Under the pieces are notes generated by a model. That model saw nothing but the letters and a program-made list of their open reading frames with translations, was not told the DNA's origin and did no database searches. From the NCBI RefSeq assembly GCF_030440595.1, contig NZ_CP047452.1, forward strand, positions 1,674,001 through 1,738,000: 64,000 nt of DNA, written 5' to 3'. This DNA is from Corynebacterium glucuronolyticum DSM 44120 (lineage in GTDB: Bacteria; Actinomycetota; Actinomycetes; Mycobacteriales; Mycobacteriaceae). The translations under genes and the position numbers were made by a program. This document shows, piece after piece, positions 3,674 through 53,254 of this stretch; position 1 is the first letter of the stretch; each line of letters begins with the position of its first letter.

Positions 3674-5176
3674 TCAGTGGGACCGAATTCCAGGCATTCC
3701 CAGGCCGACCTCACGGGGATTCGGGGCCGTAGTGGGGATAATGCCAGCCTCATAGTGGTCTCCCGCCTTGGTGCGGCGGTGGCTATGAACGCCGGAATCG
3801 GCGATGAGGTAATGGGGCTTGGATTCGGTAACGGTGACGATAACAAAGTCGCCGGGACGGATTCCCTCCCCCGTGCTGGGAGCAAAGTGGACGAGGCGCC
3901 CGTCGCGAGCGCGCCCAGACAGGCGATGATTCTCCGTCCCCTTCTTTGATTGGTGCTCTTGGACGAGGAGTTCTACCTCTTGACCAACGAAGCAAGCGTT
4001 TTCCTCGGCGCAGATGCGTTCCTGCAAGGCTTGAAGCCTCTCGAAGCGCTCCTGGACGACCTCCTTGGGTACTTGGTCTTCGTATGAAGCCGCAGGTGTC
4101 CCAGGCCTGGGGCTGTATTGGAAGGTGAATGCGCTGGTGAAGCGCGCACGTTCGACGACATCGAGGGTCTTTTGGAAGTCTTCCTCTGTTTCACCGGGGA
4201 AGCCCACGATAATGTCGGTAGTGATGGCTGCGTGGGGGATCTTTTCCCGCACTTCGTCGAGAATCGAAAGGAATTTCTTTGTCCGGTAGCTACGGCGCAT
4301 CCGCTTAAGCACCTGGTCCGACCCTGACTGCAAAGGCATGTGCAGCTGTGGGCAAATATTCGGGGTATCTACCATGGCATCGATGACATCACTGGTGAAT
4401 TCTGCAGGGTGGGGTGATGTGAAACGAAGCCTCTCCAGGCCGTCGATTTCGCCACAGGCACGCAGCAGCTTGGAGAAGGCGCTCCGGTCCCGCTCGACGC
4501 TGGGGTCGGCAAAGTTCACGCCGTAGGCGTTGACGTTCTGGCCGAGAAGGGTGACTTCTTCCACTCCCTGCTCGACAAGCGCCCGTACTTCCGCCAGGAT
4601 GTCGCCGGGGCGACGATCGAGTTCTTTGCCTCGCAGATGCGGGACGATGCAAAACGTGCACGTGTTATTGCATCCGACTGAGATACTCACCCAACCGGAA
4701 TAGGCGGATTCACGCTTTGCGGGCAGCACGGAGGGGAAGTCCTCCAGCGCGTCCTTAATTTCCACTTCCGCGCGTTTGTTGTGGGATGCTCGATCGAGCA
4801 GTGCCGGCAGGGATCCAAGGTTGTGGGTGCCGAAGACAACATCCACCCATGGCGCCTTTTCTATGATTTTTTTGCCGTCGTTTTGTGCCTGGCACCCACC
4901 AACGGCGATCTGCATCGTGGGGTGGTCCTCTTTGACTCCGAGGAGCTGTCCCAGGGTGCCGTACAGCCGCTGGGCCGCGTTTTCGCGTACGGCGCAGGTG
5001 TTGAAGACAATGAGATCCGGTACGACTGTGTGATCTCCAGCGACCAGTGGATCCTCGCCCTCATACGCAACGTAGCCGGCGCTCTCCAAGAGCCCGGATA
5101 ACCGTTCGGAATCGTGTACGTTCATTTGGCAGCCAAAGGTGCGCACTTGGTAGGTCTTAGGTATCGAGGCAGTCAC
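3674..5176 (-). CDS. miaB: tRNA-2-methylthio-N6-dimethylallyladenosine synthase MiaB
   Basis: 500 residues from GTG 5176 (reading [19 protein letters not shown]). The enzyme adds the methylthio group to i6A37 of tRNA. Three N-terminal cysteines of the auxiliary cluster are visible ([23 protein letters not shown]), followed by the radical SAM CxxxCxxC in [18 protein letters not shown] and a C-terminal TRAM-like segment ([17 protein letters not shown]). I preferred this start because a TACAAT -10 box (5185-5190) ends 8 nt before it, as in leaderless corynebacterial transcripts. A longer reading frame to 5269 adds residues not typical of MiaB. Confidence 0.95.
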
Positions 5177-5714
5177 GGCACAACATTGTATGGTACGAGG
5201 TTTCTTAGGCCTAACCGGCCGTGCGCTGGTGAATAAAAGGCGATTGCTGCTTTTGGCGTCGCACACCATTTGTACCTTTCGCTATTATCTCGCCTGTTTT
5301 GCTTCACACGTTGGGGTACTCGCCAGCACGTTGCCTTTCTTCGGAGTGGAACTGTGTAGCGCCACCCTATTGGCCTTTCTGGCGCAGTACCATAATTTGT
5401 GGCTACATACTTCACCAGCGCTCCTCTTTGTTTATTAACCCCCGCTGTACGTAATTGGTCTGCTGTTTCGGGGGCACCCGATGGCTATGCATCGCAGGTA
5501 ATAAATTCAACGATGCCACTATTTCGCACCTCGATTTAGTGTTACTAAAGTGGCGAAAATTCGGCCGTTACTCCATGCCAGGAATTAGAAACCTAAATTG
5601 TTGCGTTATTCCTGCTACAGCGCAGAATTTTAAAACATTCGCCCGTCGCATCGAGCGGGTTACCGGGCAGTCGAAAACTCCAAAACTTGAGTTCAGATGT
5701 TTTAGGCTAAATAC
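5177..5714. other. Divergent intergenic region, miaB / nuo regulator
   Basis: 538 bp without a gene I can support. The left edge carries the miaB promoter. The rest is visibly more AT-rich than its neighbours and must hold the promoter for the regulator-nuo cluster. Just before the regulator ATG is TTTTAGGCTAAATACATG, where TAGGCT or TAAATA could act as a -10 element. No clear operator or hairpin was found. Confidence 0.5.
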
Positions 5715-6170
5715 ATGCCCGAATCCAGTGTGGTTAGAACCACCCACGACAGTCACGACCCGGCCAAGCCGGTTCGTATTGCTGTTTACTCCGATAGGCG
5801 AGCGCTCAGAGAGGATGTTCGCGCGGCTATCGGCAGCAGTCTTGGTCGCGACTTTCCGTCGGTGGAACTAACAGATTTTGCAACCGCGCCCATCCTCGTC
5901 AGGGCGCTTCTTAACCGCGAGTTCGATCTCTGCCTGCTGGACGGCGAAACCGCCCCGCTTGGTGGCATCGGATTGGCGTACCAGATCCGAAATGAAGTGG
6001 ACAATCCCCCGCCACTGGTACTCCTGTTGGCACGACGCGACGACGCGTGGCTTGCCACGTGGTCCAAGGCCGACGAGGTAGTCCCACTTCCTATTGACCC
6101 TCTCCAGCTCCCGGCGACAGTGTCCCGCGTTCTTTCTGAACGACAGGCCATGCGCGAGGCTGTGGAATAG
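5715..6170 (+). CDS. Stand-alone receiver-domain regulator upstream of nuo (Rv3143-like)
   Basis: 151 residues with a response-regulator receiver fold and no output domain. Visible are an acidic-pocket region (VYSDRRALRED), a candidate phospho-acceptor Asp in CLLDGETAP, and the closing strand region DEVVPLPIDPLQL. M. tuberculosis has a comparable receiver-only protein, Rv3143, next to its nuo operon, so position supports the match. It lies 12 bp before nuoA and is probably co-transcribed. A role in controlling or interacting with complex I is inference; no partner kinase is in the window. Confidence 0.75.
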   Translation: MPESSVVRTTHDSHDPAKPVRIAVYSDRRALREDVRAAIGSSLGRDFPSVELTDFATAPILVRALLNREFDLCLLDGETAPLGGIGLAYQIRNEVDNPPPLVLLLARRDDAWLATWSKADEVVPLPIDPLQLPATVSRVLSERQAMREAVE

Positions 6171-6590: not shown

Positions 6591-7160
6591 ATGGGAATTG
6601 AAGACAACCTTAAAGGCGGTTATCTCACAACGACCACCGAGTGGCTCTTTGGTCTTACTCGCGAGTGGTCAGTGTGGCCCGCCACCTTCGGCCTCGCGTG
6701 CTGCGCATTCGAAATGATGAGCTACGCGGGGCCCCGTTACGATTCGTCTCGCTGGGGCCAGGAGGTCTTCCGCGCCTCCCCTCGGCAGGCGGATTTGCTT
6801 ATCGTCTCAGGCCGCGTGAGCCAGAAGATGGCGCCGATCATGCGACGTGTCTACGACCAGATGCCGGATCCGAAGTGGGTCATCGCCATGGGCGCATGCT
6901 CCTCCTCCGGTGGCATCTTCAATAACTACGCCATCGTCCAGGGTGCGGACCACATCGTCCCCGTCGATGTTTACGTCCCCGGCTGCCCTCCGCGCCCGGA
7001 AATGCTTATCGACGCTTCGTTCAAGCTTCGTGCCATCATCGCCAAGCAGACCAAGGTCGGCGATGCGAACACGATCGAGGACGAGCGTCGCAAGGAAGAA
7101 GCGGCCCTTGCAGGAGAAATCCGGCAGGCCCCCGAGAAACTCATCAAGATGAAGAAGTAG
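6591..7160 (+). CDS. nuoB: NADH-quinone oxidoreductase subunit B
   Basis: 189 residues. Carries the N2 [4Fe-4S] cluster that passes electrons to quinone. The cluster ligands are present: the adjacent pair C37/C38 (LACCAFEMM), C103 (GACSSSGG) and C132 (PGCPPRPE). The N-terminus ([17 protein letters not shown]) is the usual actinobacterial form. A 48-bp gap separates it from nuoA; nuoC follows after 8 bp. Confidence 0.97.
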
Positions 7161-7168
7161 GGTGCGAC

Positions 7169-7870
7169 GTGACTGAAAACCAAGCAAACCCGCTTCACCC
7201 ATCCACGGAGGAGCAACAGGAGATCGTTCGCGATAATTCGCACGCAGTCTTCGGTTCCCGTCGTGGTATGTGGGTGGATGGTACCGGCGATGTGTCCGGC
7301 TTTTCCAAGATCGTGCGCCTGCCAGACCGGATTGTCGCCGACGATGATCCGACCGCGAACCCACTGGCAGCTCGGCTCTTCGAGCTCGTCCCTGAGCTTC
7401 GTGATGCCCCTGCTGTCTCTGGTGGAGACCAGCTGACCATTTATGTGCCCCGCGAGCACCTGCTGGCGGCAGCCCACGCGCTGCGCGATGACCAAGAACT
7501 ACGGTGCGAGACGTGTTCCTCAGTTTCCGGTGTGCATTACCCGCAGGACACGGATGCCGAGCTGCACGCGGTGTACCACTTTTATTCGTTCACGCACAAC
7601 CACCGCGTGCGCTTCGAGGTCGTCTGCCCCGTCAACGATCCGCATATTCCCTCCCTCACCGGTATCTACCCCGGTGTGAACTTCCACGAGAGGGAGACAT
7701 GGGACATGTTCGGCATCATCTTCGACGGCCATCCCTCTCTCACGCGCATTCTCATGCCGGATGATTGGTCCGGCCACCCGCAGAGAAAAGACTACAAGCT
7801 CGGCGGTGTGCCAGTGGAGTTCTCCGATACTGACGTGCCACCGGTTGAGGACAGAAGGAGGTACCGCTAG
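7169..7870 (+). CDS. nuoC: NADH-quinone oxidoreductase subunit C
   Basis: 233 residues from GTG 7169. A 30-kDa-type hydrophilic subunit of the connecting module. The signature is [42 protein letters not shown] near the C-terminus. Separate from NuoD, as in most Actinobacteria; its stop shares one base with the nuoD start, indicating translational coupling. Confidence 0.95.
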
Positions 7871-9234
7871 TGACTACCGGATACTCGGCTCCAGCTGGAT
7901 CGACTGCGCTGTCGCCCGAGCAGGAATTTTCTGACCCGTCGATCCCCCAGTACTCGGCTGAAGGCGGAGACTGGCAGCAGATCGTCGAGGCGCAGCACCG
8001 TGACCGCGCCGACAGGATGATCATCAACATGGGTCCGGCGCACCCCTCCACACACGGCGTTATGCGCCTGTGCCTGGAGATGGATGGTGATATTGTCACC
8101 AACCTCCGCCCGGCAATCGGCTACCTACACACGGGAATTGAAAAGACTGCCGAATACCGCACGTGGACGCAGGGTTCTGCCCTCGTCACGCGCATGGATT
8201 ACGTCGCCCCGATGTTCAACGAGTGCGTTTACTCCATGGCTGTGGAAAAGGTCATGGGGATTACGGACGCCATCCCTGAGCGGGCACAGATCATTCGCGT
8301 TTTGTGCCTTGAGCTCTGCCGCATCGCCAGCCACCTCGTGGCGCTGGCAACCGGCGGTAACGAGCTGGGTGGCACGACGCTGCTCACCAACGGGCTCCGC
8401 GAGCGTGAGCGCATCCTCGACTTCTTCGAGTGCATCTCTGGACTGCGCATGAACCACGCGTACATCCGCCCCGGCGGTGTGGCTGGGGATCTGCCAGAAG
8501 ACGGTATGAAGATCCTCGATACGTGCCTCGACTGGTTGGAAAAGCGGATGCCCGACTTTTCCAAGATGCTCAACGATAACCCCGTGTTCAAGAAGCGCTT
8601 CGTGGATGTCGCCTACCTTGACCTCACGGGCTGCATGGCTCTCGGGATCACCGGCCCACGCCTGCGCGCTGCCGGCCTGCAGTGGGACCTCCGCAAGGCG
8701 GAGCCGTGCCTCGGCTACGAAACATACGATTTCGACGTTCCTGTGTGGGACACCTGTGATGCCTACGGCGCATACCGCGTCCGCCTGGCGGAGATGTTTG
8801 AATCACTCAAGATCGCCCGCCAGTGTCGTGATCGTCTGGCACAGACCGAGGGCCAGCCATTCATGGTGAAGGACCCGAAGATCGCCCGCCCCGCCTACCT
8901 CAAGGTGTACAAGGACGGCCAAGGCAACAGCTACGAGCACGTCAAGAACATCATGGGCCAGGATATGGAGTCCCTCATTCACCACTTCAAGCTGGTGACC
9001 GAGGGATTCAAGGTGCCTGCCGGCCAGGCCTACGTGGAGCTCGAGTCCCCGAAGGGGATCATTGGCTGCCACGTCGTTTCCGATGGTGGCACCCACCCCT
9101 ACCGCGTCCACATGCGCGACCCTGCGTTCCACGCCATCCAGGCGCTGCCCGCCCTGTGCGAGGGCGGAACGCTGTCGGATGTTGTCGTAGCAATCAGTTC
9201 CATCGACCCCGTTCTTGGAGGTGTAGACCGGTGA
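7870..9234 (+). CDS. nuoD: NADH-quinone oxidoreductase subunit D
   Basis: 454 residues from GTG 7870. The 49-kDa-type subunit forming the quinone-binding cavity with NuoB. Family landmarks: [38 protein letters not shown], a long helical core, and the C-terminal phrase [21 protein letters not shown] and [12 protein letters not shown]. Start and stop overlap both neighbours by 1-4 bp. Confidence 0.97.
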
Positions 9235-43730: not shown

Positions 43731-45485
<1,755 letters not shown>

Positions 45486-45884
45486 CCACTTATTGCTCGC
45501 TGTACTATTTCTCGGTTCCCCACCACAGGGGAGGTGTCTCGGTTAGAAGCAACTCGGCCTACCCCCTCAGAGAACCGGTCACGTTTTGCGGGGTTTGTGT
45601 CACCCACCTCGACCCTCCATTTTCGCCCACGGCATCCTGCGCTGCCTGGGTGGCAATGCACAAAGGTGCCAAGGCCGACAGAGAAGGCTCGGACCCAACC
45701 CCAGGTGTCCACTTCCATGGGGTTGGGTCCAAGCTACGGCGCTCATTCCCCCAGGTCTCACCAGACGCACGTTCTCCAGTCGCAGGTTTAGCAACCACAC
45801 AAGCGCGCTGGTGTGGAACGTGCGGGCTGACCACCGGTCTAGGGGTCACTGGTCACGCAGCCGGTTTCCGGCCACCCGGCCTAG
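45486..45884. other. Convergent gap guaB1 / ABC exporter with a 13-bp hairpin
   Basis: 399 bp without a supported gene. It contains a perfect 13-bp inverted repeat (45691-45703 with 45718-45730, GGACCCAACCCCA/TGGGGTTGGGTCC) with a 14-base loop and no T-tract. It may act as the shared end of both transcripts. Confidence 0.5.
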
Positions 45885-48056
45885 CTATTGGTCACCGATT
45901 TTCTCAGGTTCTCCAGCTGATTCTGCTTCCCCATCACCATCACGATATCCGGCTGCTTGGAGCCTTCTTAGCTCCGCGTAGTATCCATCAGCACGTAACA
46001 GGGCTTCCGGCGAGCCGAATTCCACGAGCTTCCCATGGTCGAGTACGAGCACTTCATCCGCCAGCAGGGTACTGGGCAAACGGTGACTGACGATGACGGT
46101 AATCCCGCCGTAACGTGCGTTGTCCTTAGCGATGCGTTCGTAAGCGGAGAACAACCTCTTCTCTGATTCCGGGTCAAGCGCCGAGGTGGGTTCATCCAGA
46201 ACCAGCAAGAGAGGATGCGGCCGCGTGCATCCTCGAGCCAAAGCAATTTTTTGCCACTGTCCACCAGAAAGCTGTTTGCCGCCGTCTTCCAAACCAAGTG
46301 GCGTGGATAGACCGTCAGGTAACGCCTCCAGAACATCCTCCACGCCTGCGCGGGAGAGGGCTTGTGCAGCGACCTCTGCAGAACCGAATACACCATCGTG
46401 CCCGTCCACGCCGCCAAGAGTGAGTGCCTCAGCCGCAATCATCCGAGGCCGAAGGAAATCCTGGAAAACGGCCGAGACGCGAGAATGCCAATTGCCGATG
46501 CCCGACAGTTCTTTACCGTCCACAACAATATGGCCGTCGTAATCGAGAAGACCGAGAAGGCACAGCGACAATGTCGATTTACCTGCACCGTTTTCCCCTA
46601 CGACAGCCAACACATGACCGGCGGGGATGCGAAAACTGAGGTCTGACACAGCAGGTGAATCATGCCCCGGATATGTGATGGTGAGGTGGTCAACATCGAT
46701 GCCATAGCGAAGTTCCTTGAAAAGCGACTGGTGCGGGCAAACCGCAATCGGCGCTCCATCACCCGCACTGTAGCCGTCCACTACTGTGTCTTGCTGGCTG
46801 GCAACGCCGTCAGGGAGCGTCACAGGCTCTTCGTTCTTATTCGCAGACTCATCGTTGTTATTCGCAGACTCATCGTTGTTATTCGCTGACTCATCGTTGT
46901 TATTTGCCTCGTTTGCCTGCATTGTCTCGATGTGCGAAGCCAACCACAAATAACGGTCAACGGCGTGCACGCTGCTCCCAAGAGCGGTCACGGAAGCCAA
47001 TACCATCGCGAGAGAATTTGTGAGCTTGGGTACGAGTGCGCACGCGGCTGTAAGCTGCTCGATTGACACGTGGCCGTGGACGGTGTCCACTCCCATACTA
47101 ATGAGGACAGCAGCAGCCACTGCGTAATAAACCACGCTCGACCCGATGGATACCGCCGCCTGTTTATTGTCGCGCACGTGGATCGGAGCCCGCCAGTTAT
47201 GAACTCGCTTACGTAGAATTTCATGCAGATCAGATTGCGAATTGAGGGTTCGAAGGTCTGCGCTCATCTGCGGGTCGAGCCCCGCACTCACGAGTTGTTG
47301 AATCTGGCGGACATACGGCGCCGATGCGTCGTCTGCTTCTGCCTGCCAAGCCATCACCTTTGTTTGGAAGAGTGTCTCACCAAGCCCGGCAATAGCGACG
47401 AAAATGAGGCGCCAGTCTGTCAGCACTGCAAGGACGAGCAGAACAACCTGGGAGATAAAAAGTGGGGCGACGTTTCCAAGGATGTTGAAGGACTGTCCAA
47501 GTGTGCCTTTCCTCGCGATCAGGAGCCCGAGCGCATCCGCGACTTTACTATCGTAAAAAACCGAAAGCGTCCGGGGCCGGGAGAGATAGTCCGCTATCTC
47601 GCGATCAAAGTGATGCCCGATCTTGTCTGCGACGCGGAGCCGATAATGAACGCCCATCGCGGATAAAAAGGACGGCAGGATTGAATAGACGGCAAGTCCT
47701 GCTAGAGAAAAAATGATGAGGGTTTCATCGTGGCGTGCAAGACCTCCCACGAGACCAGCTATGGCAAACGGATACAGCGTGGTGATTAGCGCGGAGATGA
47801 GGCCAGACACGGACAAAACCATTTCCCGCCGGGCAACGCTCCACCCAGAGGCGACGAGGTAGCGCAAGCAGCCGGCCGTGCCGGCTATTTGCCCCCATAT
47901 TCCGGTGCGCGTTTTATCTTCGTTGCCAACCGTAGAGTCCTCCACCACGTTTTCCTTTACGTCGTCGTCTTCGGCGTACACTGTGGCGTTTTCCACTTGA
48001 GGTCTGTCACTGGAATGTGCTGTTTTTCGGTTCTTACCGGATCGTGGTTTACTCAT
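45885..48056 (-). CDS. ABC exporter half-transporter 2 of the RiPP locus
   Basis: 723 residues. An acidic, polar N-terminal tail of ~55 residues precedes a six-helix ABC exporter membrane domain (~60-360). An Asn/Asp/Glu/Ser-rich linker (~380-440) contains a tandem repeat. The ATPase domain follows: Walker A GENGAGKST, signature LSGGQWQKIALARG, Walker B LLLVLDEPTSALD, switch His in VSHRLPSTLLADE. There is no C39 peptidase domain. It overlaps the preceding ABC gene by 8 bp, so the two halves are translated together and probably form a heterodimer that exports the modified peptide. Last gene of the cluster. Confidence 0.85.
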   Translation of the reverse strand: MSKPRSGKNRKTAHSSDRPQVENATVYAEDDDVKENVVEDSTVGNEDKTRTGIWGQIAGTAGCLRYLVASGWSVARREMVLSVSGLISALITTLYPFAIAGLVGGLARHDETLIIFSLAGLAVYSILPSFLSAMGVHYRLRVADKIGHHFDREIADYLSRPRTLSVFYDSKVADALGLLIARKGTLGQSFNILGNVAPLFISQVVLLVLAVLTDWRLIFVAIAGLGETLFQTKVMAWQAEADDASAPYVRQIQQLVSAGLDPQMSADLRTLNSQSDLHEILRKRVHNWRAPIHVRDNKQAAVSIGSSVVYYAVAAAVLISMGVDTVHGHVSIEQLTAACALVPKLTNSLAMVLASVTALGSSVHAVDRYLWLASHIETMQANEANNNDESANNNDESANNNDESANKNEEPVTLPDGVASQQDTVVDGYSAGDGAPIAVCPHQSLFKELRYGIDVDHLTITYPGHDSPAVSDLSFRIPAGHVLAVVGENGAGKSTLSLCLLGLLDYDGHIVVDGKELSGIGNWHSRVSAVFQDFLRPRMIAAEALTLGGVDGHDGVFGSAEVAAQALSRAGVEDVLEALPDGLSTPLGLEDGGKQLSGGQWQKIALARGCTRPHPLLLVLDEPTSALDPESEKRLFSAYERIAKDNARYGGITVIVSHRLPSTLLADEVLVLDHGKLVEFGSPEALLRADGYYAELRRLQAAGYRDGDGEAESAGEPEKIGDQ
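46833..46911 (-). repeat. 21-bp tandem repeat in the ABC linker
   Basis: Three full units (46833-46853, 46854-46874, 46875-46895), differing by one base each, plus a partial fourth, based on GTTGTTATTCGCAGACTCATC. It encodes repeats of NNDESAN in the linker between membrane and ATPase domains of the ABC protein. The 21-bp period keeps the frame, so copy number could vary between strains without loss of function. Confidence 0.9.
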
Positions 48057-49899
48057 GACGGCTCTCCCCTAGTCCCAGCAAAGTTGCTTGCGTTTTAAAT
48101 GCCTCGGCATATAGTCCACCATCGTGCATGAGCTGATCATGCGTGCCTACCTCGGCTATTCCTCCCCCGTCGAGGACAATGATTCGATCGCAACCCCGGA
48201 CTGTCGCAAGCCTGTGTGTCACTAGAATCGTGGTGATTTTGCCACGGTTTCCCATCACTGAGGCATACATATCGGCCTCCGTCTTGATGTCAAGTTTTGC
48301 CGTAGGCTCATCAAGAATGAGGACCTCAGCTTGGCTCGCGGTTCGAACAAAAGCGCGCGCAAGCCCGATGCGCTGCCACTGTCCTCCAGATAGCGACGAA
48401 CCTTCGCTTTGGCTGATATCTAAAACGCCGGTACGGTGCATCAGTTCCGGAGATCCAGCCAGCTCCAATGCGTCACGAGCAGCATCCGCGGCAGAGCCGT
48501 GTACACCTGCACCAATAGTGGCATTTTCCACCACAGTTAATGGGAGACGCGCGCCTTGCTGGTGAACGACCGCGAGTTTTCTTTCCGCCACACATTCCCC
48601 TGGCGAGTTTCCTCCAACTTCAATCGTGCCGGCCTCCGGTTTGTAAAGACCACAAAGAAGTTTCACCAGTGTCGATTTCCCGCAGCCATTCTTGCCGACG
48701 ACCCCGACGACTTCTCCCGGCTGGACATCAAAGCTCACGTTTTTGAGTACGTCAGTACCTCCCGGGTAACCGAACGTCAGCTCCCGCACGTGTATGGCAC
48801 CTGCCTCCCCCACCGTTGCCTCGGGGGCCACCTGGTGCGATCGCACCTCTGCGTCCCCGCCATCCCCATTCAGGCTCTTTTTCCTCCAGCGATCGCTTCC
48901 CTTCCCGTCAGCTCCAGCTTCCGCCTGGTGCCTCATACGCCGTAGTTCTTCCCACTGTTTCTTATGCTGGGCAACGCGTATTTCAGCATCGCCTCCGACC
49001 GGACCCCAAAGTCCCATTTGATCCACCGCTTGGATAATCATGATGCAAGACCCCACTGTCAGCGCCCCGGTGAGCGCACCGTGGATACTCCACAGCCAGC
49101 ACCCCACAACGAAAGTGGAGGCGACACCGCTGGATAGATACACCGCACGAAGCTGTTTGTCCTGCTCTGCCCACATCGGCCGCACTGCCTCATGCCACAG
49201 TTGGGAAAACCGTGACAGTGCTAGGGATCGTATTCCCCATACACGTGCTTCTCCCGCATTTCGCCAGTCAGTAAGCAAGCTGTTGTACCAGGTAGCGTGA
49301 GAGAGGGCTTGCGAACCAGAGTCGTACAACGAAGCAAAAGCTTTCTCTCCATAGCTTTCCCACGTTGCGGCTGCCCACCACATCAACCCGATGAGAGCCA
49401 GCGCAATAAGCGGATTCCATGCAAGAACGACACCTGTCACGCACAGTGCGCTTAACCGAGCATTGAAAATCTGGAACAAGGGCCCGACGCCGACACTTCC
49501 GCTCATCTTCACAAGCTGGTTCGACACTGTCTCTAAGGTCGAACGCATTTGTGGATCTTCTACTACCTCAAGTGTAGGAGAGCCGTAAAGCGCCACGTGA
49601 AGATCATCAAACTGGTGTTTTAGGAACCCAGTATTTGCTCTTTCCACTGCAACGTTTTGAATTCTTGGCATCGTCTTCGCCGCAAACATAGCCAGAGCCA
49701 GCACCGCCAGTATCAAAGCTACGTGGCCTGCATCCTTTCCTGAGCCAACAACAGCATCAATTAGCGCCTTTGTGGCAAAAAGAATTGCAATATTTGCCAC
49801 TGCCGACGTAATTGCTGCCAAAAATGCTACTGAAACTGCGGGCTTTGCACCCTTAAAAATCGATCCGATATAAGAGGTATAGGAATAAAGTTTTTTCAT
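48049..49899 (-). CDS. ABC exporter half-transporter 1 of the RiPP locus
   Basis: 616 residues. Membrane domain of about six helices (residues ~20-310) beginning MKKLYSYTSYIGSIFKGAKP. ATPase domain: Walker A GKNGCGKST, signature LSGGQWQRIGLARAF, Walker B EVLILDEPTAKLD, switch His in LVTHRLATVRG. A charged linker (~335-370) joins the two. No peptidase domain. Lies 171 bp after the precursor gene, downstream of a stem-loop, in the same direction as the maturase. Export of the mature peptide, or immunity, is inferred from this context. Confidence 0.86.
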   Translation of the reverse strand: MKKLYSYTSYIGSIFKGAKPAVSVAFLAAITSAVANIAILFATKALIDAVVGSGKDAGHVALILAVLALAMFAAKTMPRIQNVAVERANTGFLKHQFDDLHVALYGSPTLEVVEDPQMRSTLETVSNQLVKMSGSVGVGPLFQIFNARLSALCVTGVVLAWNPLIALALIGLMWWAAATWESYGEKAFASLYDSGSQALSHATWYNSLLTDWRNAGEARVWGIRSLALSRFSQLWHEAVRPMWAEQDKQLRAVYLSSGVASTFVVGCWLWSIHGALTGALTVGSCIMIIQAVDQMGLWGPVGGDAEIRVAQHKKQWEELRRMRHQAEAGADGKGSDRWRKKSLNGDGGDAEVRSHQVAPEATVGEAGAIHVRELTFGYPGGTDVLKNVSFDVQPGEVVGVVGKNGCGKSTLVKLLCGLYKPEAGTIEVGGNSPGECVAERKLAVVHQQGARLPLTVVENATIGAGVHGSAADAARDALELAGSPELMHRTGVLDISQSEGSSLSGGQWQRIGLARAFVRTASQAEVLILDEPTAKLDIKTEADMYASVMGNRGKITTILVTHRLATVRGCDRIIVLDGGGIAEVGTHDQLMHDGGLYAEAFKTQATLLGLGESRHE

Positions 49900-50019
49900 G
49901 GATTTTGTATTTCTAGTATTAGTTTCTCATAGGTGCCCTGTAACAAGCTCACCTCTAATGCTGACAAGCCTCGTTCGTAAGAAGGAATAATTCTCCCTAG
50001 AAGGTAAGTTAAATTCCCC

Positions 50020-50052
50020 TTTCCCTCTGGCTACGGTATAGCCAGAGGGAAA
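50020..50052 (-). terminator. Intercistronic stem-loop between precursor and ABC genes
   Basis: 13-bp perfect stem (50020-50032 with 50040-50052), 7-base loop, beginning 18 bp after the precursor stop. On the minus strand it is followed by GGGGAATTTAACTT, not a clean T-run. Such loops after short peptide genes often stabilise the precursor message and allow only partial readthrough into the exporter genes. Confidence 0.7.
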
Positions 50053-50070
50053 GTAATAGCTGATTGGGAG

Positions 50071-50187
50071 CTAGAAGCCACCACAGAGAGTGCCTCCACC
50101 GCCGCAATGTTCGATGTCACGATACAAATCAGCAGCTAGCACCTCATCAATTTCATCAATCCATTCAGACAACTGAAGCTCTTCCAT
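50071..50187 (-). CDS. RiPP precursor peptide, Gly/Cys core
   Basis: 38 residues from ATG 50187, with a strong ribosome site (GAGGAGGGAGG) upstream. The leader is acidic and helical (MEELQLSEWIDEIDEVLAAD, then LYRDIEH). The core is CGGGGTLCGGF, with two Cys six residues apart in a Gly-rich frame and a C-terminal Phe. It lies 42 bp downstream of the radical SAM/SPASM gene and just upstream of two exporter genes. The two Cys are the likely donors for thioether or other cross-links made by the SPASM enzyme. I cannot match it to a named precursor family, and the leader cleavage site is unknown. No protease gene is in the locus. Confidence 0.82.
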   Translation of the reverse strand: MEELQLSEWIDEIDEVLAADLYRDIEHCGGGGTLCGGF

Positions 50188-50229
50188 TTTCGCCTCCCTC
50201 CTCAAGATTTAATCCGATAACGCCACCAG

Positions 50230-51408
50230 TCATTTGGGGGCTAGCCCCACTGACCGAAAATAAATAGATCCTCTTTTTCCTACAACCCCACTTAAGATCC
50301 CCTCAATCACCCCGACTCTCCAGGCACACATATATGGGTTCATACTCTCCTCACCTTCAAGGAGCTCCCCGACGCAACTACGACAAATGCTCCGAACCGG
50401 ACATGCGAGGCATTCAGGTCTATCATTTCGAATAACGCTCTCAACACTATGTTGAGCCTGTGCCGTAGCCGTTTGAAATGGCTCCCCGTCCAACACGCTT
50501 CCTAAATGAAACTCATGGCTTCCAATTGCGCGATAGCACGGCCAGATCTGCCCATCTGCCGACACGGAAATCGTGCTCCGCATAAGTTCGCAATGGGTAA
50601 GCCGATTTTCCCGTTGAAATATGATATGAAGGTGGTCTAGAATAAGGCGTTTAGCAGCACGAGTGTCACAATTTTCTATAAGCGAAACTACAAAATGAAA
50701 CGCTAATTCCTGAAACTCATTCGGAGACAGTGGCCAATCTCGTGCACCTGTCATCGGGATCATCATTATCGAATAAGGGCTAAATTCCGCATCGATGTAT
50801 CTAAACACTTCAAAAGGGGTTAACCCCCTACGAAGGTGCTCTGGTGTGTAAGTACACTCAGTCGAAAAATCAATTCCTTCAAATTGCAATGATCTTAAGT
50901 TTGAACTTACTCGGGAAAAGGAACCCTTCCCTGTTTTGTCGAACCGCTGCGCATCGTGGATTGACTCTGAGCCATCCACGGAGACGGTCAACCTTAGTTG
51001 CCTCTTTTTTAAATACGGTATTAACTTATCACTCAGTACTGTGAGGTTTGTAACAGCTCCAATCGAAGGCACTTTCGAAAATGATTCTTCGGCAAGCTGG
51101 ATTGCATAGATCACTAAGTCGGGACGAAGCAGCGGTTCACCACCAAAAAGTTTGATACTAGTAGTTTGGGGGAAACAGGATGCTCCCCACCCCATAGTTT
51201 CACGCAGCATTTCTTTGGAGATTGCTCTACGGAATGACGAATATGAACCCCCACCAGCAAAACAGCAGCTACAAGCTAAGTTACAGGTCTGTACGAGATT
51301 AATAGTCAACTCGAACGCGTTCGCAGCCTTACCGCATGCTACAGAAGTGGCGTGGGATCTAACCGCATTAAAAAGGGGTTCGCTTTCCGGCGAGAAAAAC
51401 CGTGGCAC
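50230..51408 (-). CDS. Radical SAM/SPASM peptide maturase
   Basis: 392 residues from GTG 51408, chosen because AAAGGAG sits six bases upstream; the frame stays open to a TTG at 51543. Radical SAM cluster CxxxCxxC at C42, C46 and C49 (TCNLACSCCFAGGG), with an extra C48. A GGE motif follows in IKLFGGEPLLRPD. The C-terminal SPASM domain has seven Cys: C273-x12-G-x4-C291, then C333-x2-C336-x5-C342-x2-C345 and C361, enough for two auxiliary clusters. SPASM enzymes of this design install C-S or C-C links in peptides. The gene is strikingly AT-rich (22 G+C in the 60 bases from 51001), unlike the core genome, suggesting recent transfer. Confidence 0.9.
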   Translation of the reverse strand: MPRFFSPESEPLFNAVRSHATSVACGKAANAFELTINLVQTCNLACSCCFAGGGSYSSFRRAISKEMLRETMGWGASCFPQTTSIKLFGGEPLLRPDLVIYAIQLAEESFSKVPSIGAVTNLTVLSDKLIPYLKKRQLRLTVSVDGSESIHDAQRFDKTGKGSFSRVSSNLRSLQFEGIDFSTECTYTPEHLRRGLTPFEVFRYIDAEFSPYSIMMIPMTGARDWPLSPNEFQELAFHFVVSLIENCDTRAAKRLILDHLHIIFQRENRLTHCELMRSTISVSADGQIWPCYRAIGSHEFHLGSVLDGEPFQTATAQAQHSVESVIRNDRPECLACPVRSICRSCVGELLEGEESMNPYMCAWRVGVIEGILSGVVGKRGSIYFRSVGLAPK

Positions 51409-51530
51409 GAGACACTCCTTTCGCGATTGCTTATAAAAGAAGATACGACAAAGAGCTCCACTGAACTCAAAAATCTTGCAAGAGAGATAAAAATCACACA
51501 AATAATCGTAAACCAGTTCTCCTCTAGATT

Positions 51531-52044
51531 TCCCAAGGGTCAAGTCGATTTGTGTGGTGTATTAACTGTTTGGGGGTGTGGGGGTAGTTGATACTGGTTT
51601 TTGCTAGTCGTGGAGGTAGGTTATGACCTCCTGGTAGCATTGTGCGCTGATGTTCATCAGGTGACCGAGGGGGTCTTCGATTTCGGGCATGATTGGTTGC
51701 AGCGCGTTGTTTAGGGCGAGGATTGGGTGGGTATCGTTGGGTTGCAGGGCGATTTGGTCGATGATCATCGGCAGGGCGTTCAGCATGGAGGCGATGCGGT
51801 CAAGTGTGTCCTCGATGGGTTGTGGTTGCGTGTGGGGGTCAATGGTTAGGCTATTTCTTTCTTTTCCGGCTCGGCATCGATAGAAGTTTGGTTTATTGTT
51901 CTTCGTGTTTCTGCTAGAGCAGCTAGTGACATGTACCGTTTTTGTTGGATCCACTCGTCGTGTTGCTCCGACAGTACGGCGCCGACTAGCCGGGTAACAG
52001 CGTCGCGGTTGGGGAAAATACCGACGACGGAGCTGACCCCGTTT
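51531..52044 (-). mobile_element. IS256-type element remnant (3' end)
   Basis: Reading the minus strand from ~52044 to the TAA at 51846-51848 gives SSVVGIFPNRDAVTRLVGAVLSEQHDEW followed by QKRYMSLAALAETRR, the C-terminal end of Mutator/IS256 transposases. The catalytic part is missing. The outer end near 51531-51563 (TACACCACACAAATCGAC on the minus strand) resembles the terminal repeat of such elements. The IS3 remnant begins just beyond the broken side. The element end lies ~125 bp upstream of the maturase start and may contribute to its promoter. Confidence 0.75.
51604..51786 (-). CDS. Small ORF inside the IS256-type remnant, unknown
   Basis: 60 residues from ATG 51786 (MLNALPMIIDQIALQPNDTH), ending in YQEVITYLHD. 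It sits between the transposase stop and the element end, in a different frame. The composition is protein-like (amphipathic, few rare residues), but there is no convincing ribosome site and the frame stays open far upstream. It may be an accessory ORF of the element or chance. Confidence 0.35.
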   Translation of the reverse strand: MLNALPMIIDQIALQPNDTHPILALNNALQPIMPEIEDPLGHLMNISAQCYQEVITYLHD

Positions 52045-52099
52045 GTGTGGACACCCTGATTCCCGGCTTGTTGGGTCGGGGGAAAGGTAGTCTACTGTC

Positions 52100-52808
52100 A
52101 TGCCGCGTAGAAATTTTTCTTAAGGAATTCAAGCGCGATGCGGTTGCGATGTATGAGAACGACCCCGATGTGTCGATGAACCAGGTCTCCAAGGATTTGG
52201 GGATCAATCGAGCCACACTGCGTTATTGGATCGACCAATTTGGAACTGGTAAGAAAACAGCACCTGTAGCTGTGGAAAAGCCTTCTGATGACCGCAATCT
52301 AGAAGATGAAAACCGCCGTCTGAAAAAGGAAAACACCAGGCTTCGTGAGGAGCGGGATATTTTGGTCAAGGCCGCGAAATATTTCGCGGGAGAGACAAAC
52401 TGGTGATCCGCTTCCGGTTTGTTGATGACCACCGCACCGTGTACTCGGTCAAGCGGATGTGTGCTGTTTTGACAATCCACCGCAGTAGCTACAACACCTG
52501 GCGTTTTAGACGCGAAAGGCGGGATCACAAGGCTTTGTCAGATGCGCTTCTTGGGGTGCGCATCACGGAGGTCTTCCGGCAAGAAAACGGTTGCTACGGT
52601 GCCAAGCGTATTACGGCTTAAACTCAATGATGATCCAGGTTCTACTCCTCTAAACCACAAGCGTGTGGCCAGGATCATGAAGGATTTAGGCCTTTGCGGG
52701 TATACCAGGCGACGAAGAGTAAAAACCACCGTGCGAGCCAAAGGCCGAAACGTGTTTGCTGACCTTGTACGCCGCAGGTTTTACGCCGATGGAATCAACA
52801 AACTTTAT
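52100..52808 (+). mobile_element. IS3-family element, frameshifted and truncated
   Basis: OrfA begins at ATG 52100 as MPRRNFS, then needs a one-base shift to continue EFKRDAVAMYENDPDVSMNQVSKDLGINRATLRYWIDQFG, followed by a leucine-zipper-like tail ending at 52406. OrfB starts at 52403 (MIRFRFVDDHRTVYSVKRMC), hits a stop at 52621 and needs another shift (RITA then KLNDDPGSTPLNHKRVARIM). It breaks off after GINKLY near 52808, before the catalytic DDE residues. So it is inactive on at least three counts. 52809-52939 holds no further recognisable piece. Confidence 0.85.
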
Positions 52809-52939
52809 GCCCACGGACACCAAAGTGCACGAGCAGAGGGATCGGAAGATACTAGCAACGGCGCAGATCGACATGTTGCTGGGTAAGTCAGACAGTACTC
52901 GCCACGGTTGCGTCCGCAATCTATGTTGCTTACTCACAC

Positions 52940-52970
52940 AAAAAAATGCGCTAGGAAAACCTAGCGCATT
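52940..52970 (-). terminator. Terminator after rpsO
   Basis: 11-bp perfect stem AATGCGCTAGG/CCTAGCGCATT (52945-52955 with 52960-52970), loop AAAA, followed on the minus strand by a T-run. It is 14 bp past the rpsO stop. Confidence 0.95.
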
Positions 52971-52984
52971 GTTCTTTGAAGCTC

Positions 52985-53254
52985 TTAGCGGCGGAGGCCG
53001 AGACGTGCGATGAGGTCACGGTAACGGTCGATGTCGCGGGAAGCCAGGTACTTGAGCAGGCCCTTGCGGCGACCAACGAGGAGCATGAGGCCACGACGCG
53101 AGTGGTGATCGTGACGGTGGGTGCGCAGGTGCTCGGTCAGCTGGGTGATGCGACGCGTCAGCAGCGCAACCTGAGCCTCGGGCGAACCGGTGTCGGTCTC
53201 GTGCAGGCCGAATTCCTTGAGGATTTCCTTCTTCTCTTCTGAAGACAGTGCCAT
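52985..53254 (-). CDS. rpsO: 30S ribosomal protein S15
   Basis: 89 residues, the normal length. Family phrases: [73 protein letters not shown] precedes the ATG. A TATCAT box at 53284-53289 on the minus strand is a possible -10. In related genomes rpsO lies next to pnp; here ~9 kb separates them. Confidence 0.98.

Follow-up and report, generated by a model that had tools for sequence, protein, structure and literature searches.

A putative minimal radical SAM/SPASM peptide cluster between rpsO and pnp of Corynebacterium glucuronolyticum DSM 44120

Does a compact group of four genes in Corynebacterium glucuronolyticum DSM 44120 (NZ_CP047452.1) make a modified peptide, and if so, of what kind? 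The group lies in a stretch of 64,000 nt (hereafter the window; coordinates of the locus are window positions) and comprises a radical S-adenosylmethionine (SAM) enzyme with a SPASM region (the maturase), a 38-aa open reading frame (ORF; the precursor candidate) and two ATP-binding cassette (ABC) half-transporters, ABC1 and ABC2. Judged by sequence comparison, the locus appears to be a genuine, intact-looking and rare cluster for a ribosomally synthesized and post-translationally modified peptide (RiPP), belonging to a divergent SPASM radical SAM type. The gene set, the cluster ligands of the maturase, its fold, the precursor-maturase pairs at two other loci and the foreign-looking position of the locus were all computed. 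The interpretation considered likely in this work is that of a horizontally acquired, minimal SPASM radical SAM cluster, in which Cys thioethers would be formed on a Gly/Cys peptide exported by the ABC pair.

Results

The precursor candidate and its counterparts at two related loci

The 38-aa ORF, separated from the maturase stop by 42 nt and preceded by a strong ribosome-binding site (GGAGGGAGG), is probably the true precursor. An acidic leader (residues 1-27) would be followed by a core running from C28 to F38; this putative core contains no Trp, Tyr, Lys or Arg, and the only two Cys of the ORF (C28 and C35) fall within it. A Gly/Cys end was defined as at least two Cys and at least three Gly within the last 15 residues of ORFs of 25-60 aa, and was present in 6 of 441 small ORFs in the window, in 2 of 105 at a related locus of Actinomyces oris (L007) and in 3 of 151 at a related locus of Cutibacterium sp. 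(L020); with these frequencies, composition alone is a weak sign. Small ORFs were sought at five loci (the window, L007, L020 and the more distant L008 and L021) of a collection that also comprised L023-L103, L105-L109, L111, L113 and L141-L188.

A small ORF accompanied the maturase at all three family loci read, with a similarity to the window precursor that was clear for A. oris and weak for Cutibacterium. The A. oris ORF (34 aa from a GTG start, 2011-2115, ending in ATGGGCGAFC; it would have 31 aa if started at an inner GTG) gave the best alignment to the window precursor among the 105 small ORFs of its locus (score 47; the next, a low-complexity ORF, scored 32), and only 6 of 20,000 shuffles scored as well. 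This ORF was left unannotated in the A. oris record. The Cutibacterium ORF (34 aa, 9055-9159, minus strand, AAGGAG in front, ending in WCGFGCSGIGIS) lies directly upstream of its maturase (P0015), whose database start falls past the ORF stop. All three small ORFs carry two Cys within the last 15 residues. An earlier sequence-only reading of the window had proposed a SPASM maturase acting on a small Gly/Cys precursor, and had named homologous maturases without a nearby small ORF as evidence that would speak against it; the Cutibacterium and A. oris maturases both have such an ORF, followed by a hairpin as in the window, and the proposal is strengthened accordingly.

The hairpin behind the window precursor had a folding energy of -32.1 kcal/mol (z -6.6; none of 200 shuffles as good), and a longer stretch reached -36.2 (z -4.2; 1 of 200 shuffles as good). 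Hairpins were also found behind the small ORFs of A. oris (-29.1 kcal/mol, z -5.4) and Cutibacterium (-29.6 kcal/mol, z -2.9, 3 of 200 shuffles as good), these two having been sought post hoc, after that of the window was seen. All three start at most 20 nt past the small-ORF stop, without a U-tract. In a control restricted to ORFs with the Gly/Cys end, a hairpin with z of -2.5 or lower followed one of six in the window, one of two in A. oris and one of three in Cutibacterium (control-run z of -5.6, -5.1 and -2.8 respectively), and at each locus the ORF concerned was the member of the maturase gene group, on the same strand. The other five such ORFs of the window gave z between -1.5 and 0.1. 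The background of hairpins at this threshold behind small ORFs was 12 of 200 sampled (window), 6 of 105 (A. oris) and 3 of 151 (Cutibacterium). Of the two distant radical SAM loci, L021 had one ORF with the pattern on the maturase strand, without a hairpin; of the two at L008, one is followed by a hairpin (z -3.7) but falls within an annotated transposase gene, so this locus offers no convincing precursor.

An intrinsic terminator was considered as the identity of the window hairpin and rejected, as there is no U-tract and the hairpin is absent from the terminator-like sites predicted. The hairpin may instead keep the precursor message abundant. An Rfam scan of 45000-53000 gave no match at the gathering score, and promoter-like sites were at chance level (3 found, 3.8 expected).

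Gene organization and features of the maturase

The four genes lie co-directionally on the minus strand (Table 1), with an overlap of 8 nt between ABC1 and ABC2. Both points agree with the sequence-only reading, as does the complete ligand set that it had assigned to the maturase: the radical SAM motif CX3CX2C (C42, C46 and C49) and the seven SPASM ligands (C273, C291, C333, C336, C342, C345 and C361) are invariant in an alignment of 54 rows.

Table 1. Features of the locus and its flank in the window.
Feature	Position	Strand	Description
Radical SAM/SPASM peptide maturase	50230..51408	minus	392 aa, GTG start at 51408, AGGAG upstream
Precursor peptide (probable)	50071..50187	minus	38 aa, GGAGGGAGG upstream, ends HCGGGGTLCGGF, start at 50187
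RNA hairpin	50019..50053	minus	17 nt past precursor stop, without U-tract
ABC half-transporter 1 (ABC1)	48049..49899	minus	616 aa, membrane part and ATPase, PF00005 5.7e-30
ABC half-transporter 2 (ABC2)	45885..48056	minus	723 aa, PF00005 1.6e-24, short tandem repeat in linker
IS3-type element remnant	52047..52900 (outer limits approximate)	plus	between locus and rpsO; HTH_Tnp_1 1.2e-10

The maturase matched the radical SAM family PF04055 with 47.6 bits (cut-off 29.5) and the SPASM family PF13186 below threshold (16.2 bits, cut-off 21.5), and its predicted fold was closest to CteB, ChlB and anSME. From the GTG start, 32 residues stand ahead of the first radical SAM strand (the database entry for the same protein, P0005, has an earlier start and 439 aa), and the leader would be recognized without a fused RiPP recognition element. 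Among the NCBIfam models listed, the maturase fell below all 25 cut-offs. The nearest model was PapB (NF047865; 137.9 bits, cut-off 340), which was also the top model in six of six family members scanned, with five of five relatives at 135.6-192.5 bits. Identities as a nif11, SCIFF, PapB or GggB maturase were rejected, all scores being far under the NCBIfam cut-offs, as was viperin (padloc pVip match, 41.4 bits).

Relatives of the maturase

The maturase is present in one copy in its own genome, which was the only one of 201 genus genomes to contain it at E 1e-10. Besides the maturase's own 90%-identity cluster, which comprises 16 member sequences, a single-sequence search gave nine radical SAM proteins at 21-35% identity; in the corresponding search of genome contigs, none of 26 pattern matches gave a relative. 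Among 394 genomes of the class there was one good relative (G463; 31% identity, 152 bits) and a weak further match (G256, 58 bits). The G463 protein is P0015, “radical SAM protein [Cutibacterium sp.]”, encoded at L020 and 29-31% identical to the window maturase; used as a query against the 97 genomes of its family, it matched its own and no other.

A two-sequence profile gave three metagenomic clusters (P0016-P0018) at 301-306 bits, with the next match at 130 (7995 candidates scored). In searches of plasmids, an A. oris protein came fourth with the window maturase (26% identity, 103 bits) and first with P0017 (29% identity, 148 bits). Since 26% is about the distance of other peptide maturases, its family membership leans on the precursor and on the match to P0017. 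A six-row profile then scored 7997 protein candidates, and an Actinomyces clade including A. israelii (P0026-P0035) was among the best 120 of 927 matches; these 120 omit the expected members P0015-P0018, so that absence from this list or from that of the two-sequence profile, both from capped searches, says little.

The alignment scan of genome contigs covered the best 80 of 483 relatives (590 stretches, 23-27% identity), which by title were nearly all Clostridia or other Bacillota, with one Collinsella. Scored with the six-row family hidden Markov model (HMM), the top score among these 80 was 171.6 bits, the members, from which the HMM was built, scoring 491-661 bits; true members may have ranked out of the best 80 of 483, as confirmation used the window sequence alone. 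Intermediate scores were given by P0019 and P0020 (219-232 bits) and by L008, from Methylocystis (194 bits), which were left out of the family, the border being our choice. P0019 and P0020, both of metagenomic origin and about 750 aa long, match the family profile and seem to contain two tandem radical SAM modules.

A phylum search with the query A2 matched 5 of 396 genomes, the four others at the background level (126-168 bits). The A. oris maturase as query matched 4 of 296 in its class (its own, G463, G459 with 103.8 bits and G256 with 84.4 bits) and nothing among 213 genomes from the order to which G306 belongs, a set that held no positive and thus does not indicate absence. Viral scans gave 1 of 49, 0 of 10 and 48 of 80 stretches, none of these loci exceeding 108 bits with the six-row HMM, and P0017 matched 60 phage records with at most 100 bits. 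The whole locus had no match among plasmids; ABC1 searched there by tblastn matched 4535 records, all below 60% identity and one with 80% coverage. By DNA, 8 of 61 relatives matched, the 7 other than its own genome with pieces shorter than 100 nt.

Genomic position and history

Elsewhere in the genus, 18 genomes were checked: in 16 of them rpsO lies within the 1.5 kb flank of pnp, with a short gap between the two genes, and in the other two it was not seen there. In the window, this gap (43742-52985) is an insertion spot, occupied by the locus, a guaB-like gene and IS3 remains; the IS3 remnant gave partial matches to IS3 transposases carried by actinobacterial plasmids. The GC content was 47% for the maturase, 46% for the precursor stretch, 54-56% for the ABC genes and 58.5% for the window. 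The locus was apparently acquired horizontally from elsewhere, given the low GC content of the maturase, the conserved neighborhood of rpsO and pnp and the presence of the maturase in a single genome of the genus.

In a sister species (G166), whose PNP was the most similar of 19 others searched (98%), pnp and the guaB-like gene sit at the edge of one contig, and the ABC genes adjoin rpsO at the edge of a second (L006 1-4042, G166:C68); any join between the two would be hypothetical. DNA identity to the window is 95-96% over the ABC genes and 74-91% over those aligned flanks that exceed 300 nt, and the match ends at 50030, within the hairpin. Neither precursor nor maturase was found in the 300 nt before rpsO, and there was no maturase match genome-wide at E 1e-10. 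The G166 ABC1 has an internal stop, and ABC2 runs off the contig. This pattern would fit an exchange of the ABC part and, in whichever order, a loss of the rest.

Exporters

ABC1 and ABC2 both contain the Walker A, signature, Walker B and H-loop motifs, with five strongly hydrophobic stretches each in a simple hydropathy scan. No peptidase domain was among their Pfam matches up to E 0.1, so the C39 domain of peptidase-containing ABC transporters (PCAT) was not seen. ABC1 has no obvious ribosome-binding site. A 21-nt tandem repeat (46820-46903, spacing 21) in ABC2 encodes an Asn/Asp/Glu/Ser repeat between the membrane part and the ATPase, of which the G166 ABC2, by its overlapping match ends, seems to hold fewer units.

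The paired ABC exporter, which the sequence-only reading included in the locus, does not extend to the two related loci and is not supported as a defining part. The A. oris locus has an ABC ATPase and a permease with sub-threshold FtsX and MacB_PCD matches, and the Cutibacterium locus a major facilitator superfamily (MFS) protein (48 bits, above the cut-off). The A. oris locus also encodes a BtrH_N-like protein and an M50-like membrane protein (4963-5922 and 7130-7936; both matches sub-threshold), possible candidates for leader processing. A secreted-looking protein of 432 aa without a Pfam family above the cut-off is encoded downstream of the Cutibacterium cluster (4867-6165).

Discussion

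Proposed mechanism and alternative explanations

In the mechanism that we infer, the 38-aa peptide would be translated in excess, the hairpin past its stop probably protecting or delimiting the message, and the maturase would bind the acidic leader and join the thiol of C28, of C35 or of both to a carbon atom in a neighboring residue, candidate small rings being C-x-x-G (C28-x2-G31) and C-x-x-F. A protease encoded elsewhere would then remove the leader, and the ABC pair would export a Gly/Cys product of about 11 residues, which may have an inter-bacterial role as a bacteriocin or signal.

Several observations weigh against this interpretation. Only three loci bear the precursor argument. The exporter type is different at all of them, the precursor and the maturase alone being common to all. 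The A. oris ORF, which heads its gene group on the same strand, lies about 3.8 kb upstream of its maturase. The Cutibacterium ORF ranked only third of 151 against the window precursor, 459 of 20,000 shuffles being as good, and with this weak alignment its case depends on its place and its hairpin. A Gly/Cys end and a hairpin can also co-occur by chance, as the ORF inside the L008 transposase gene has both. No protease, regulator or immunity gene (unless the ABC pair serves as the last) was seen in the locus. Residue 48 of the maturase (51265-51267), next to the third cluster Cys, is Cys in the window and Tyr in at least 90% of the 54 alignment rows, and is the sole difference from the representative of its own 90%-identity cluster, which has Tyr; the change may be silent or harmful to activity, and since it replaces a near-invariant residue the window allele might be weaker.

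The same peptide could be modified without thioethers, the maturase oxidizing, epimerizing or making a C-C bond and the Cys serving metal or disulfide chemistry. SPASM enzymes catalyze many reactions, the fold search cannot separate these chemistries, and NCBIfam models of cyclophane-forming enzymes match as well. The latter matches are weaker, however, whereas the thioether enzymes PapB and the SCIFF maturase are among the best models; Trp, Tyr, Lys and Arg are absent from the putative core; and two Cys are kept near the end of all three small ORFs, all of which makes this alternative unlikely. Decay of the locus, with no product in this strain, would be compatible with thioether formation in its ancestors. 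It is suggested by G166, which lacks precursor and maturase and carries a stop in ABC1, by the substitution at residue 48 and by the mobile-element debris that adjoins the locus; but here all four frames are open, the cluster Cys of the maturase, the ABC motifs and the ribosome-binding site of the precursor are present, and the 90%-identity maturase cluster has its 16 member sequences, so that decay is likewise considered unlikely. It is very unlikely that the maturase modifies another protein, in the manner of anaerobic sulfatase maturases, with the small ORF and the ABC genes as bystanders. The sulfatase-maturase model gave just 79.9 bits (cut-off 349), although anSME is among the closest folds, and while the GC content differs between ABC genes (0.54-0.56) and maturase (0.47), and the ABC genes persist without a maturase in G166, each of the three maturases examined has in its gene group an ORF with a Gly/Cys end and a hairpin behind it, and two of these ORFs show a similarity beyond that of shuffles.

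A bolder proposal, put forward tentatively and more doubtful than not in our judgment, is that these loci represent a distinct minimal actinobacterial class of radical SAM RiPPs, with its own maturase clade, a DEID-like acidic leader, a Gly/Cys C-terminus (GGG..CG[GA]F, two members), a hairpin behind the precursor, a freely swapped exporter and Cys rings onto Gly or a C-terminal Phe, a chemistry unmatched by the curated families seen. If the thioether interpretation is true, it would add to the SPASM radical SAM RiPPs an unassigned branch whose substrate is very small (about 11 residues, two of them Cys and most of them Gly), and would help to ask how a radical SAM enzyme chooses its acceptor in a core lacking Asp, Glu and any aromatic residue other than the C-terminal Phe. 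A small ORF with a Gly/Cys end and a following hairpin could also serve as a search key for unannotated precursors.

Comparison with known systems

No literature on this peptide or its Actinomyces and Cutibacterium relatives was found among open-access papers, judged by title and the start of the abstract; a census such as PMC8549736 may include such clusters unnamed. The window maturase and its relatives match the model of the PapB ranthipeptide maturases best, yet far below its cut-off. According to PMC9413430, PapA has Cys-X3-Asp/Glu motifs; in the window precursor no Asp or Glu follows C28, and no such motif is present. Against the model of the SCIFF maturase CteB/ScfB (TIGR03974, PDB 5wgg), the window maturase scored 93.8 of the required 425 bits, and its N-terminus is shorter. 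The SCIFF precursor is defined by six Cys (the model is named rSAM_six_Cys), whereas the window precursor has two. The window maturase shares 16% identity with ChlB (PDB 9gm3/9gmc), known here by its PDB title alone; no description of the ChlB chemistry was found in the open-access literature.

Streptosactin (GggA/GggB) has two small unnested Cys rings, of which Cys31-Gly34 is a C-x2-G ring (PMC8172795); its precursor is likewise short, and C28-x2-G31 of the window resembles this ring. The streptosactin model (NF050038) gave 82.8 bits for the window maturase (cut-off 650), and the protease and regulators that belong to the streptosactin cluster had no counterpart seen in the window locus.

The nearest relatives found are a few actinobacterial and metagenomic enzymes. 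Within the Actinomyces radical SAM clade (A. oris NZ_CP116225; A. israelii P0029), A. oris has a similar precursor and a hairpin as in the window, with an FtsX/MacB-like ABC system and the BtrH_N and M50 proteins (all sub-threshold) in place of the ABC pair. Cutibacterium sp. likewise has a related maturase, with a small ORF directly upstream of it and a hairpin between the two; the MFS exporter differs, and the similarity of the precursors is weak.

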